This document shows, piece after piece, positions 5,560 to 8,748 of a DNA stretch of 64,000 nucleotides; the stretch's first letter is position 1; each line of letters opens with the position of its first letter. The translations under genes and the position numbers were made by a program. The DNA is from Anaerolineae bacterium. GTDB lineage: Bacteria; Chloroflexota; Anaerolineae; Anaerolineales; Villigracilaceae. The notes under the pieces are model-generated. The model was not told the DNA's origin. It made no database searches and saw only the letters and a program-made list of their open reading frames with translations. The stretch covers positions 1-64,000 of the forward strand of contig QEXW01000061.1 in assembly GCA_003130845.1 (NCBI GenBank), in the 5' to 3' direction.

Positions 5560-6096
5560 TTATTTCAGCACGCTCTCAAACGCAGCTTCGAATTCTTGCT
5601 CGCGCACGAAACCATTCCAACGTTTTACGACCTGCCCATATTTATCTAATAACACAAAATAGGGTTGATACTGAAAGCCGTATTCGCGTTGCAAAGCGCT
5701 CGTGGCAGGGTCACTTGCATCGAGGAAGAAGAAGTCAATCTGACCGGCGTATTTTGCTTCTAGCCCATGCACCATGGGCGCCATGGCACGGCAGACTGGT
5801 CAGGTATAGCGGAAGAATTCCAACAGGACGGGTCTTCCTTGGCCAATTTGCACACTTGCCGGGTCGCTGGCCATCAACTCATCGCCGCGCGAAGTGGCTT
5901 GCAGGGTGGGTTGTGATAAGGGTGGCGAGAGTTGTGTGGCGGTGAGTGTCGCATTTGAAGAGGGTGTTTCCGTCTGAGGGGGAACTGTCGTTGCAGAGGC
6001 AGAGATTTCCTTGCTTTCCGTAGGTACCAGTGGGGGCACGGTGGGAACACAGGCACTTAACAATAAAATCATGGCGAAGGTCAGAAAAGGTTTCAT
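5560..6096 (-). CDS. Thioredoxin-like lipoprotein, candidate selenoprotein (in-frame TGA at 5800-5802)
   Basis: Reading through one TGA gives a continuous 178-residue protein. Residues 1-16 are a lipoprotein signal (ILLLSAC lipobox). A Thr/Pro/Ser-rich tether follows, then a thioredoxin-like domain from about residue 80. Around the TGA the sequence is LLEFFRYT-[TGA]-PVCRAMAPMV. The TGA therefore falls exactly where the first Cys of a CxxC motif belongs (U-P-V-C). The downstream half is intact and thioredoxin-like (IDFFFLDASDP, YQPYFVLLD with the cis-proline). A hairpin suited to a bacterial SECIS starts 10 bases after the TGA. It is the last gene of the cluster with the ABC transporter and the peroxiredoxin-like protein. 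Alternatives: a nonsense mutation or a sequencing error in a TGC/TGT codon. No selenium-insertion genes lie in the window to confirm it. Confidence 0.72.
5769..5789 (-). promoter_or_regulatory. Candidate bacterial SECIS hairpin
   Basis: On the minus strand GTGCCATG (5789-5782) pairs fully with CATGGTGC (5776-5769), with two G-U wobbles, around loop GCGCC. The loop opens with G and begins 18 bases after the TGA. Short bacterial SECIS elements have a small apical loop with an early G at about this distance. Found by eye, not folded. Confidence 0.5.
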
Positions 6097-6179: not shown

Positions 6180-6965
6180 TTAATGCTCGCCTCCTTGTGC
6201 TAATGCTAGGATTTCTGCGCGCGTCTCGTAGATGCGCACCAGTTTCCCATCGCGCATTTGCAAAACACGGTCAACGTATTGACACATACGCAGGTCATGG
6301 GTGACCATGATGCCGGCGCGGTCATTCTCGTGAATGAGAGCAGCAAAGGTTTGTACGACTTGAAAAGCGCGTTCAGTATCTAGGCTGGCGGTTGGCTCAT
6401 CGGCCAGCACAACGGTTGGTGAGTGAATGAGGGCGCGGGCAATTGCTACCCGTTGCTGTTGACCGCCCGACATTTGACTGGGCAAATTGTACAGGCGCTC
6501 ACCCAGTCCCAAGCGGGCAAGCAGTTCGGCCGAGCGTATCCGCCCGGCTTTGTCTAGTCGGTTGTTAAGGCGCAACATGAGTTCAACGTTTTCGAGTGCG
6601 TTGAGAAACGGAATCAGGTTGTTCGATTGAAATGTGAAGCCAATTTTCTCGCGGCGCAGGCGTACGCGTTCACGTTCGTTCATGCGGGCCAGGTCCTGGC
6701 CATCAATCAGCACTTGACCACTGGTAGGGGTGAGCAAGGCTGCTAAGATGGAGAGCATGGTGGTTTTTCCTGACCCGCTCGGCCCAACCAGCGCTACGAA
6801 TTCCCCTTGCCGCACGCTAAACGAGACGTCATCGACCGCATTGATTGGCCCGGTATCGGTGAGGAAGGTTTTAACGACGTTACGCACTTCAAGCGCAATC
6901 GGTTTGGCCTCGCTTTGTTTTTCTGCGATGATGTTTTGAATGGGATGTGTAACGATAACACTCAT
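6180..6965 (-). CDS. ABC transporter ATP-binding protein (MacB/LolD type)
   Basis: A 261-residue ATPase subunit that powers the FtsX-type permease encoded 8 bp upstream. Walker A is GPSGSGKTT, the Q-loop lies in FTFQSNNLIPF, the signature is MSGGQQQRVAIARAL, Walker B is VVLADEPTASLD and the H-loop is IMVTHDLR. This subfamily couples ATP to lipoprotein release, peptide export or mechanotransmission rather than nutrient import. No periplasmic adaptor gene is beside it. Substrate unknown. The 84-bp gap to the redox lipoprotein gene is compatible with one transcript. Confidence 0.92.
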   Translation of the reverse strand: MSVIVTHPIQNIIAEKQSEAKPIALEVRNVVKTFLTDTGPINAVDDVSFSVRQGEFVALVGPSGSGKTTMLSILAALLTPTSGQVLIDGQDLARMNERERVRLRREKIGFTFQSNNLIPFLNALENVELMLRLNNRLDKAGRIRSAELLARLGLGERLYNLPSQMSGGQQQRVAIARALIHSPTVVLADEPTASLDTERAFQVVQTFAALIHENDRAGIMVTHDLRMCQYVDRVLQMRDGKLVRIYETRAEILALAQGGEH

Positions 6966-6973
6966 GCTTTCTC

Positions 6974-8137
6974 CTATGAAAGGCGCAATGCTTTGAGTGG
7001 TTCAATGCGCACTGCGTAAATTACTGAGACCAACCCACCGAGAGGGCCTATCAGCAAAAGGGCAACGAGTGCCAGCGCAGAGGCCGCACCGTTGAAGAAG
7101 AGCGGCACCGTAGGAGGAAAGCCAAGTGAGAACAGATACGTCAGCAGGCCGCCAATGGCCACACCAAAGGCTGTTACCAGCGAAATCTGAATCACTGCTG
7201 CCGCACCGACGACCGGATTGGAGGCACCAATCGCTTTTAATACACCAATTTGCGGTACTTTTTGCAACACTTGAATTTGAAAAAATCCGCCAATCACCAA
7301 AATACCAATGAGTAGCGTGAACCCGCCCTGGGTTTGCACGGTGCCTTGCTGCGCCGAGTAGCCGGGGATGTTATTAATGGTGGTTTGGATGTCAGCCACC
7401 TCGATATTCTTGACGCTGCTCAGCAATTTTTCTTTCATCTGTTCTATCTGCGTTGAGTCTTTTAGGCGCACAACGATGATGTTGATGGCTGCTACGGTGT
7501 TCCCTAATTCGGCATCGGATTTCGGGCGTATTTTTTCCCACACGGAGGGCGTGACGAAGATCGAAGGCTGGAAGAAATATGCTTGCCCGCTGGTTGTGCC
7601 GACCACTTTCAGGTCGTAAAATTCGTCCTCCACGCCTTGGGTGGAACGAACGGTGATAGTATCTCCAATTTGGATATCGGTACGGTCTAACACACGTTGG
7701 TCTACAATCACTTCACGCGCAGTCGCCGAGAGAAACGTGCGCCCGGCGGTCAGTTGCGGGAAGCCTGGCCGACCGGCTTCTACGCCCAGCAGAGAAACCT
7801 TGAGCACCTCGTTCTTGCTGCCAGGAGGCAACAGGATGGCCGTGCTGGAGGTGGAGATGGGGCCGGCATCTTCTACGCCCTCTACACGGCGCACCGCGCG
7901 TAAGGTGGATTGGCGCAATCGGCTGGCCGAGATGATGTAGTCCGATTTTTCCAAAAACACTACCAATTGCCCATCTAGCTTGGAGATGTATTCACGGTTG
8001 TTCGTTCCCAATCCCTCACCCAGCGCAGCGATGAATAAGACGAGCAAAGTGATGAGCGCAATCACTAGGCTAACCAGCAAAAAGCGCCCTTTGTTGCGCC
8101 AGATTTCTTTGAATGCTAGATAAAATGCCAAACTCAT
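6974..8137 (-). CDS. FtsX/MacB-type ABC transporter permease
   Basis: A 387-residue membrane subunit: one N-terminal helix (FLLVSLVIALITLLVLFIAA), a large extracytoplasmic domain (residues about 45-260), then three helices at the C-terminus. This is the type VII ABC (MacB/DevC) topology. Its start codon overlaps the stop of the peroxiredoxin-like gene by 4 bp (ATGA), showing translational coupling. It pairs with the downstream ATPase. The cargo is unknown; the redox neighbours suggest a role linked to oxidative or thiol stress, which is inference. Confidence 0.88.
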   Translation of the reverse strand: MSLAFYLAFKEIWRNKGRFLLVSLVIALITLLVLFIAALGEGLGTNNREYISKLDGQLVVFLEKSDYIISASRLRQSTLRAVRRVEGVEDAGPISTSSTAILLPPGSKNEVLKVSLLGVEAGRPGFPQLTAGRTFLSATAREVIVDQRVLDRTDIQIGDTITVRSTQGVEDEFYDLKVVGTTSGQAYFFQPSIFVTPSVWEKIRPKSDAELGNTVAAINIIVVRLKDSTQIEQMKEKLLSSVKNIEVADIQTTINNIPGYSAQQGTVQTQGGFTLLIGILVIGGFFQIQVLQKVPQIGVLKAIGASNPVVGAAAVIQISLVTAFGVAIGGLLTYLFSLGFPPTVPLFFNGAASALALVALLLIGPLGGLVSVIYAVRIEPLKALRLS

Positions 8138-8748
8138 GTTGATTTTGCTCCCCCCATAATAGGTGACTCCAATGGCATGCCCCAGTCCATGCCCATCACA
8201 CCGCGCAACAGCAGGTCAACCGGTGGATGATCGGCAATATCATCATAATAATAGGGCAGGCGGATTTTGCCATCGGGGCCGATGATAAACGTGCCAGACA
8301 TCTGCATGGCATCTTGTCCGGCTGGTGGCAATTCGGCCTTCCAACCCTTTTCGCGCGCAAGTTTGCGGTTTGAGCGCCAGACGCGCAGCGACAAAATGGA
8401 TTGCCAGAGCGAGGCGCGCCCCAAGCCATAAGCGCGATAGGCTACGCGTTGCGGGTCAGCCAAGCAGATGGCGCCAGGCGCACGCTCTGCACAAAAGGCT
8501 TTGGCGGCTTCGGGAGTCCCTTGGGTGACAATGACCAGGGAAAGGCCTTTGGCAGCCATTTCCGGTTTGTATTGAATGAGGGTGTCCACCATCTCCTTGC
8601 ATTGTGGACACCCAAAATGGCGCGTGAAGGCTAGCACCAGCACGCGGTTCTGCCACAGGGTGGAAAGCCGGATAGGTTGCCCTTCGACGGTGAGAAGTTC
8701 AACATCCGGTGCAGAGTCGTTGAATTTTAGGTGTGACATCTTTGACAT
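8134..8748 (-). CDS. Peroxiredoxin-like (AhpC/TSA, PRXL2-type) protein
   Basis: A 204-residue cytoplasmic protein with a thioredoxin fold. The active-site region is AFTRHFGCPQCKEM, so both cysteines of CxxC are present. This TRHFGC pattern is typical of the peroxiredoxin-like group that also includes selenocysteine versions in other organisms. The C-terminal part has MSGTFIIGPDGKIRLPYYYD, the usual strand after the cis-Pro. It is the first gene of the redox/ABC cluster. Starts at 8748 or 8739 (second ATG) are both possible. Probable thiol peroxidase or oxidoreductase; substrate unknown. Confidence 0.85.
   Translation of the reverse strand: MSKMSHLKFNDSAPDVELLTVEGQPIRLSTLWQNRVLVLAFTRHFGCPQCKEMVDTLIQYKPEMAAKGLSLVIVTQGTPEAAKAFCAERAPGAICLADPQRVAYRAYGLGRASLWQSILSLRVWRSNRKLAREKGWKAELPPAGQDAMQMSGTFIIGPDGKIRLPYYYDDIADHPPVDLLLRGVMGMDWGMPLESPIMGGAKST

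Follow-up and report, generated by a model that had tools for sequence, protein, structure and literature searches.

Translation of a thioredoxin-like gene in the 64,000-nucleotide stretch of Anaerolineae DNA analysed here (the window) raises the question of whether an in-frame TGA terminates the protein or is read as selenocysteine (Sec). With TGA translated as U, the gene on the minus strand (6096-5560 including the stop) comprises 178 codons followed by TAA, and its single in-frame TGA, which appears as TCA on the plus strand, encodes residue 99 in the context FFRYT-U-PVC, the first position of a UPVC motif lying within the thioredoxin domain. The initial annotation had described this arrangement, a 178-codon frame with TGA as the first codon of CxxC, although without naming the strand, and translation confirmed it. 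The frame is indeed open beyond the TGA, for 79 codons rather than the 78 counted earlier. Read with genetic code table 11, the same gene yields an ORF of only 98 aa (5800-6096, minus strand) ending at the TGA. Taking together the evidence presented below, which comes from sequence comparison, we put the probability that the UGA at residue 99 is read as Sec at about 0.96. The features of the locus are listed in Table 1.

Table 1 Features of the putative selenoprotein locus and its upstream neighbours in the window.
Feature	Position	Strand	Evidence
Putative selenoprotein gene: lipoprotein signal, Thr/Pro/Ser-rich linker and UxxC thioredoxin domain	5560..6096	-	Translation; PF00085/PF13098; family alignments; AlphaFold2; Foldseek
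Predicted signal peptide with lipobox LSA-C (Cys16)	6049..6096	-	Sequence MKPFLTFAMILLLSAC; Cys16 column nearly invariant in the family
Predicted Sec codon TGA, residue 99, start of UPVC	5800..5802	-	Same codon in relatives; Cys in homologues from genomes without clear tRNA-Sec
Candidate bacterial SECIS hairpin GCCCAUG-GUG-CAUGGGC	5763..5779	-	Covariation in 123 distinct sequences and alignment A2; -11.3 kcal/mol; bSECIS model
ABC transporter ATPase, upstream neighbour	6180..6965	-	PF00005; next to the selenoprotein gene only here and in L056/L195
FtsX-type permease, upstream neighbour	6974..8137	-	PF02687; same restricted adjacency
SelL-related peroxiredoxin-like protein, Cys form (GCPQC)	8134..8748	-	NCBIfam NF040769, above its cut-off

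The product is predicted to be a bacterial lipoprotein on the basis of its N-terminal signal peptide, a lipobox (LLLSAC, judged by eye) and a Cys16 that is nearly invariant in the family alignment. The signal is followed by the linker, and the thioredoxin domain begins at about residue 85. The Pfam match to PF00085 spans the TGA (residues 87-171, E 1.2e-8, 35.3 bits against a gathering threshold of 23.5), and PF13098 (Thioredoxin_2) also matches, barely above its gathering score (28.8 against 27 bits). The domain model built with AlphaFold2 from a 33-row alignment, with Sec entered as Cys, adopts the beta-alpha-beta-alpha-beta-beta-alpha thioredoxin fold with a mean pLDDT of 93.4, and the best PDB matches retrieved for it by Foldseek are thioredoxins. 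Moreover, the Q144-Pro145 pair, with Pro145 at the cis-Pro position, is invariant in a 12-sequence alignment, and Q144 is near-invariant over the family alignments, in agreement with the earlier report of thioredoxin features, including the cis-Pro, downstream of the TGA. The protein is thus assigned to the thioredoxin fold by its Pfam score, its modelled topology and its cis-Pro, and very probably represents a membrane-anchored selenoprotein of the thioredoxin type.

We then examined how the TGA is distributed among relatives. Strong homologues were recovered when 396 genomes of the class were searched, and nearly all of them read as one TGA within an open frame. In a first sample all 30 homologues carried one TGA at the same codon, and a second set of 80 loci was taken from named public genomes, almost entirely Anaerolineae/Chloroflexi and partially overlapping the first. 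In the combined set, UxxC with one TGA occurs at the same column in 109 of 110 loci, and the 110th has the same TGA in a frame that is split upstream. Such recurrence of one TGA across homologues excludes chance. Purifying selection also persists 3' of the TGA, with a median pN/pS of 0.32 over 211 pairs. Under table 11 the frame does stop at the TGA, as would be expected if it were a sequencing error or a disabling mutation of TGC/TGT, but all 110 close homologues, drawn from many assemblies and independent genomes, share it at this codon, which makes a base-call error untenable, and the downstream selection together with the compensatory changes in the SECIS hairpin described below leaves an error or a pseudogene a negligible chance. 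One further family member (L142, on contig C213 of genome G207) contains two TGA codons, giving UPTU, and may carry Sec at both redox positions.

Beyond Anaerolineae, a profile search of the phylum gave no match at family-level scores; the strongest one outside the class had an E value of 1.5e-21, and the frames matched there mostly lacked a TGA. In two weaker thioredoxin-like relatives from other classes of the phylum (L181 and L182) the motif also begins with a TGA (YUMGC and WUPSC), and these are perhaps independent UxxC selenoproteins. No plasmid homologue of the gene was found.

Downstream of the TGA, a hairpin with a 7-bp stem and the 3-nt loop GUG, G being first in the loop, begins after 20 nt and occupies nt +24 to +40 (the T of TGA being +1), with a UGA-to-loop spacing of 27 nt counted from the sequence. 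The published bSECIS model allows a loop of 3-9 nt, a stem of 4-16 bp, a G in the first two loop positions, a UGA-loop distance of 16-37 nt and an energy of at most -7.5 kcal/mol (PMC13188914), and the hairpin at 5779-5763 lies within all of these limits. Among 123 distinct homologous sequences, the first loop base is G in every one, and the six pairs of the stem are formed in 98.5% of cells. The 2000 shuffles used for comparison averaged 91.7% and never exceeded 93.4%; they exchanged codons only between sequences that share the amino acid of a column, so that every protein sequence was kept. In the 29-sequence alignment, changes on both sides were observed in five of the six pairs, and the covariation score was 0.442 against 0.227 +/- 0.023 for shuffled alignments, a value that no slid register equals. 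At the level of codons, the wobble position of a His codon on the 3' side of the stem changes together with a Met/Ile or Val codon on the 5' side, the combinations being A-U in 81 sequences, G-C in 35 and G-U in two. No Rfam match was found at this position.

The initial annotation had instead pointed to a hairpin 10 bases after the TGA with a G-led loop. A hairpin starting about 10 nt after the TGA does exist, with the loop CGC; the one that the family conserves, however, starts at 20 nt. When the window's own sequence is folded, the structure of lowest energy contains this competing hairpin and not the SECIS stem, the former being favoured by about 1.4 kcal/mol; single-sequence folding of the window is unremarkable (z -0.6 and -1.0). 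Because its z-scores are ordinary and the covarying hairpin is another one, the hairpin at 10 nt was rejected as the SECIS and is probably not functional in this role.

Reading of the UGA as Sec would need the corresponding machinery, and the genome contains complete genes for tRNA-Sec (78.3 bits, anticodon TCA), SelA (531.8 bits) and SelB (357 bits). For selD only a 5' fragment was recovered (L051, 3415-3597), which runs to the end of contig C30 of the source genome (G000) and missed the cut-off of the SelD model. This fragment has an in-frame TGA of its own, in SSCAGUASK, so that SelD, truncated here by the assembly, is probably a selenoprotein as well. Formate dehydrogenase is a classic selenoprotein; the two full-length genes for its alpha subunit in the source genome (L183 on C49 and L184 on C23) have no TGA within the match, and the enzyme is apparently not a selenoprotein in this organism.

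Homologues with Cys at the Sec position (L136, L137, L139 and L140; L175, L177, L178 and L179) are more distant than the close homologues bearing TGA. Of the genomes checked for SelA, the two of the Cys form (G270 and G288) lack it and all 15 others have it, and four further Cys-form genomes (G003, G156, G238 and G293) gave only weak tRNA-Sec scores. When the top match of each genome was considered, a clear tRNA-Sec was present in 72/74 genomes with a TGA-bearing match, while six of the nine genomes with a non-TGA match were without one (Fisher p 5.8e-6, uncorrected for shared ancestry and with a tRNA-Sec threshold set by eye). The two TGA-bearing genomes without a clear tRNA-Sec are 69% and 78% complete. 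Genomes without a clear tRNA-Sec mostly have Cys at the same place. Two distant Cys homologues, L138 and L141, occur in genomes that have tRNA-Sec and may belong to a different subfamily. The selenoprotein candidacy proposed in the initial annotation is therefore borne out by the sel genes found in the genome (tRNA-Sec, selA and selB), by the conserved TGA and by the presence of either TGA or Cys at this position in relatives.

A TGA inside an open frame would also be seen if the whole genome read TGA as Cys, Trp or some other residue, or if readthrough were non-specific, neither of which involves selenium. In the window, TGA terminates 22 out of 46 long ORFs, indicating that it is an ordinary stop elsewhere; moreover, the Sec insertion genes and the covarying SECIS specifically fit Sec, and genomes without Sec machinery mostly have Cys in place of the TGA. 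We regard such a reading as highly improbable. Error, pseudogene and reassignment were accordingly all rejected on the grounds of conservation, selection, SECIS covariation, machinery and stop usage, and decoding of the UGA as Sec is the reading we retain.

Upstream of the gene, the SelL-related, permease and ATPase genes form a trio that is kept in ten relatives. The initial annotation had regarded a UxxC thioredoxin ending such a peroxiredoxin-like/ABC cluster as a new arrangement, a proposal that was not supported, since the trio is followed by the selenoprotein gene only in the window and in the sister genome G537, which we take to be the same genome as that of L056 (Anaerolineales SKYG2). 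A conserved operon with the peroxiredoxin and ABC genes was rejected for this reason, and with an adjacency that is only local, no partner can be read from the arrangement. In other relatives the selenoprotein gene lies in different contexts. Its commonest neighbour there, found at 45 loci, is a divergent gene that by eye resembles an aldehyde dehydrogenase and that does not point to any redox partner. No redox partner could be named from conserved neighbours in the relatives' loci. The SelL-related neighbour itself has Cys (GCPQC) in the window and its genus, while distant relatives from the same taxonomic order (L205 and L206) carry TGA in place of the first Cys of that motif.

Sequence evidence shows the Sec decoding potential, the SECIS, the fold and the lipobox; for the reaction direction, electron donor and substrate, we infer the following scheme. 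The UGA at codon 99 would be decoded as Sec by the genome's SelA, SelB and tRNA-Sec, directed by the SECIS 20 nt downstream, and the lipid anchor and flexible linker would tether the thioredoxin-fold domain on the outside of the cytoplasmic membrane. If the protein works as CxxC thioredoxins do, its Sec selenolate would attack a disulfide or a similar oxidised group, after which the resolving Cys102 would complete the exchange. The role would most likely be that of an extracytoplasmic thiol-disulfide reductase, for which CcdA is a plausible electron donor, a CcdA/DsbD_TM gene being located elsewhere in the genome. That the protein acts as a general reductase is the function towards which we lean by analogy.

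Alternatively, Sec may be inserted into a protein that serves as an oxidase or isomerase (DsbA/DsbC-like), or as the dedicated partner of a single enzyme, for instance a peroxiredoxin or methionine sulfoxide reductase acting outside the cytoplasm. The near-invariant Gln before the cis-Pro, where Ile is usual in thioredoxin, the lack of the CGPC proline in the motif and the position of the gene after the SelL-related peroxiredoxin-like gene in two genomes are consistent with such a role. However, the best sequence and fold matches are thioredoxins, and the peroxiredoxin neighbour is not kept alongside the selenoprotein, so we consider these specialised roles rather unlikely and favour the general reductase.

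UxxC families in PF00085 and PF13098 are already listed among prokaryotic selenoproteins (PMC9312934, PMC13188914). The window protein shares with the PF00085 family the Pfam domain, Sec as the first residue of CxxC and a bacterial SECIS in the coding region, but differs by its predicted lipoprotein signal and long linker, and it scores far below the curated cut-off of the canonical thioredoxin equivalog TIGR01068 (35.5 against 96.8 bits). With the UxxC thiol:disulfide interchange proteins of PF13098 (PMC9312934, PMC13188914) it shares UxxC and a PF13098 match, whereas its best Pfam match is PF00085. The membrane-tethered ResA/TlpA/DsbE reductases also present a thioredoxin fold at the outer face of the membrane, and many family members match them weakly; in contrast to these Cys proteins, the window protein would have Sec, and a lipid anchor in place of a transmembrane helix, and no conserved cytochrome-maturation neighbours were found in the relatives' loci. 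SaoT (NF040730) is likewise UxxC thioredoxin-like, but its model does not match the window protein and matches only 1/33 members (E 2.9e-4).

None of the NCBIfam curated selenoprotein models matched the window protein above its cut-off, and PMC9312934 and PMC13188914 make no mention of the lipoprotein subfamily, of Anaerolineae or of Chloroflexi, which, as open-licence literature, is weak evidence of novelty. Family-level matches are confined to Anaerolineae in the sampled phylum. Because of the missing NCBIfam model, the silence of the reviews and the class-confined matches, we place the protein in a new subfamily of UxxC selenoproteins. UxxC thioredoxin-like selenoproteins are a known kind, and what is apparently new is a lipoprotein subfamily confined to one class. 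On balance we favour its description as an uncatalogued, surface-anchored selenothioredoxin subfamily, apparently restricted to Anaerolineae, with Sec practically fixed in all genomes that possess the machinery.

Should the gap in the literature and in NCBIfam be real, these proteins would form a selenoprotein family with a predicted extracytoplasmic role as general thiol-disulfide carriers. Pipelines for which TGA is only a stop would annotate a truncated lipoprotein, and they may therefore overlook a redox protein that is widespread in an abundant environmental group. These genes would also offer a clean case of a SECIS shaping codon choice in a coding gene, with a change from Val to Ile/Met paired with a synonymous change in His. 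Moreover, selenium use outside the cytoplasm in Anaerolineae becomes testable.
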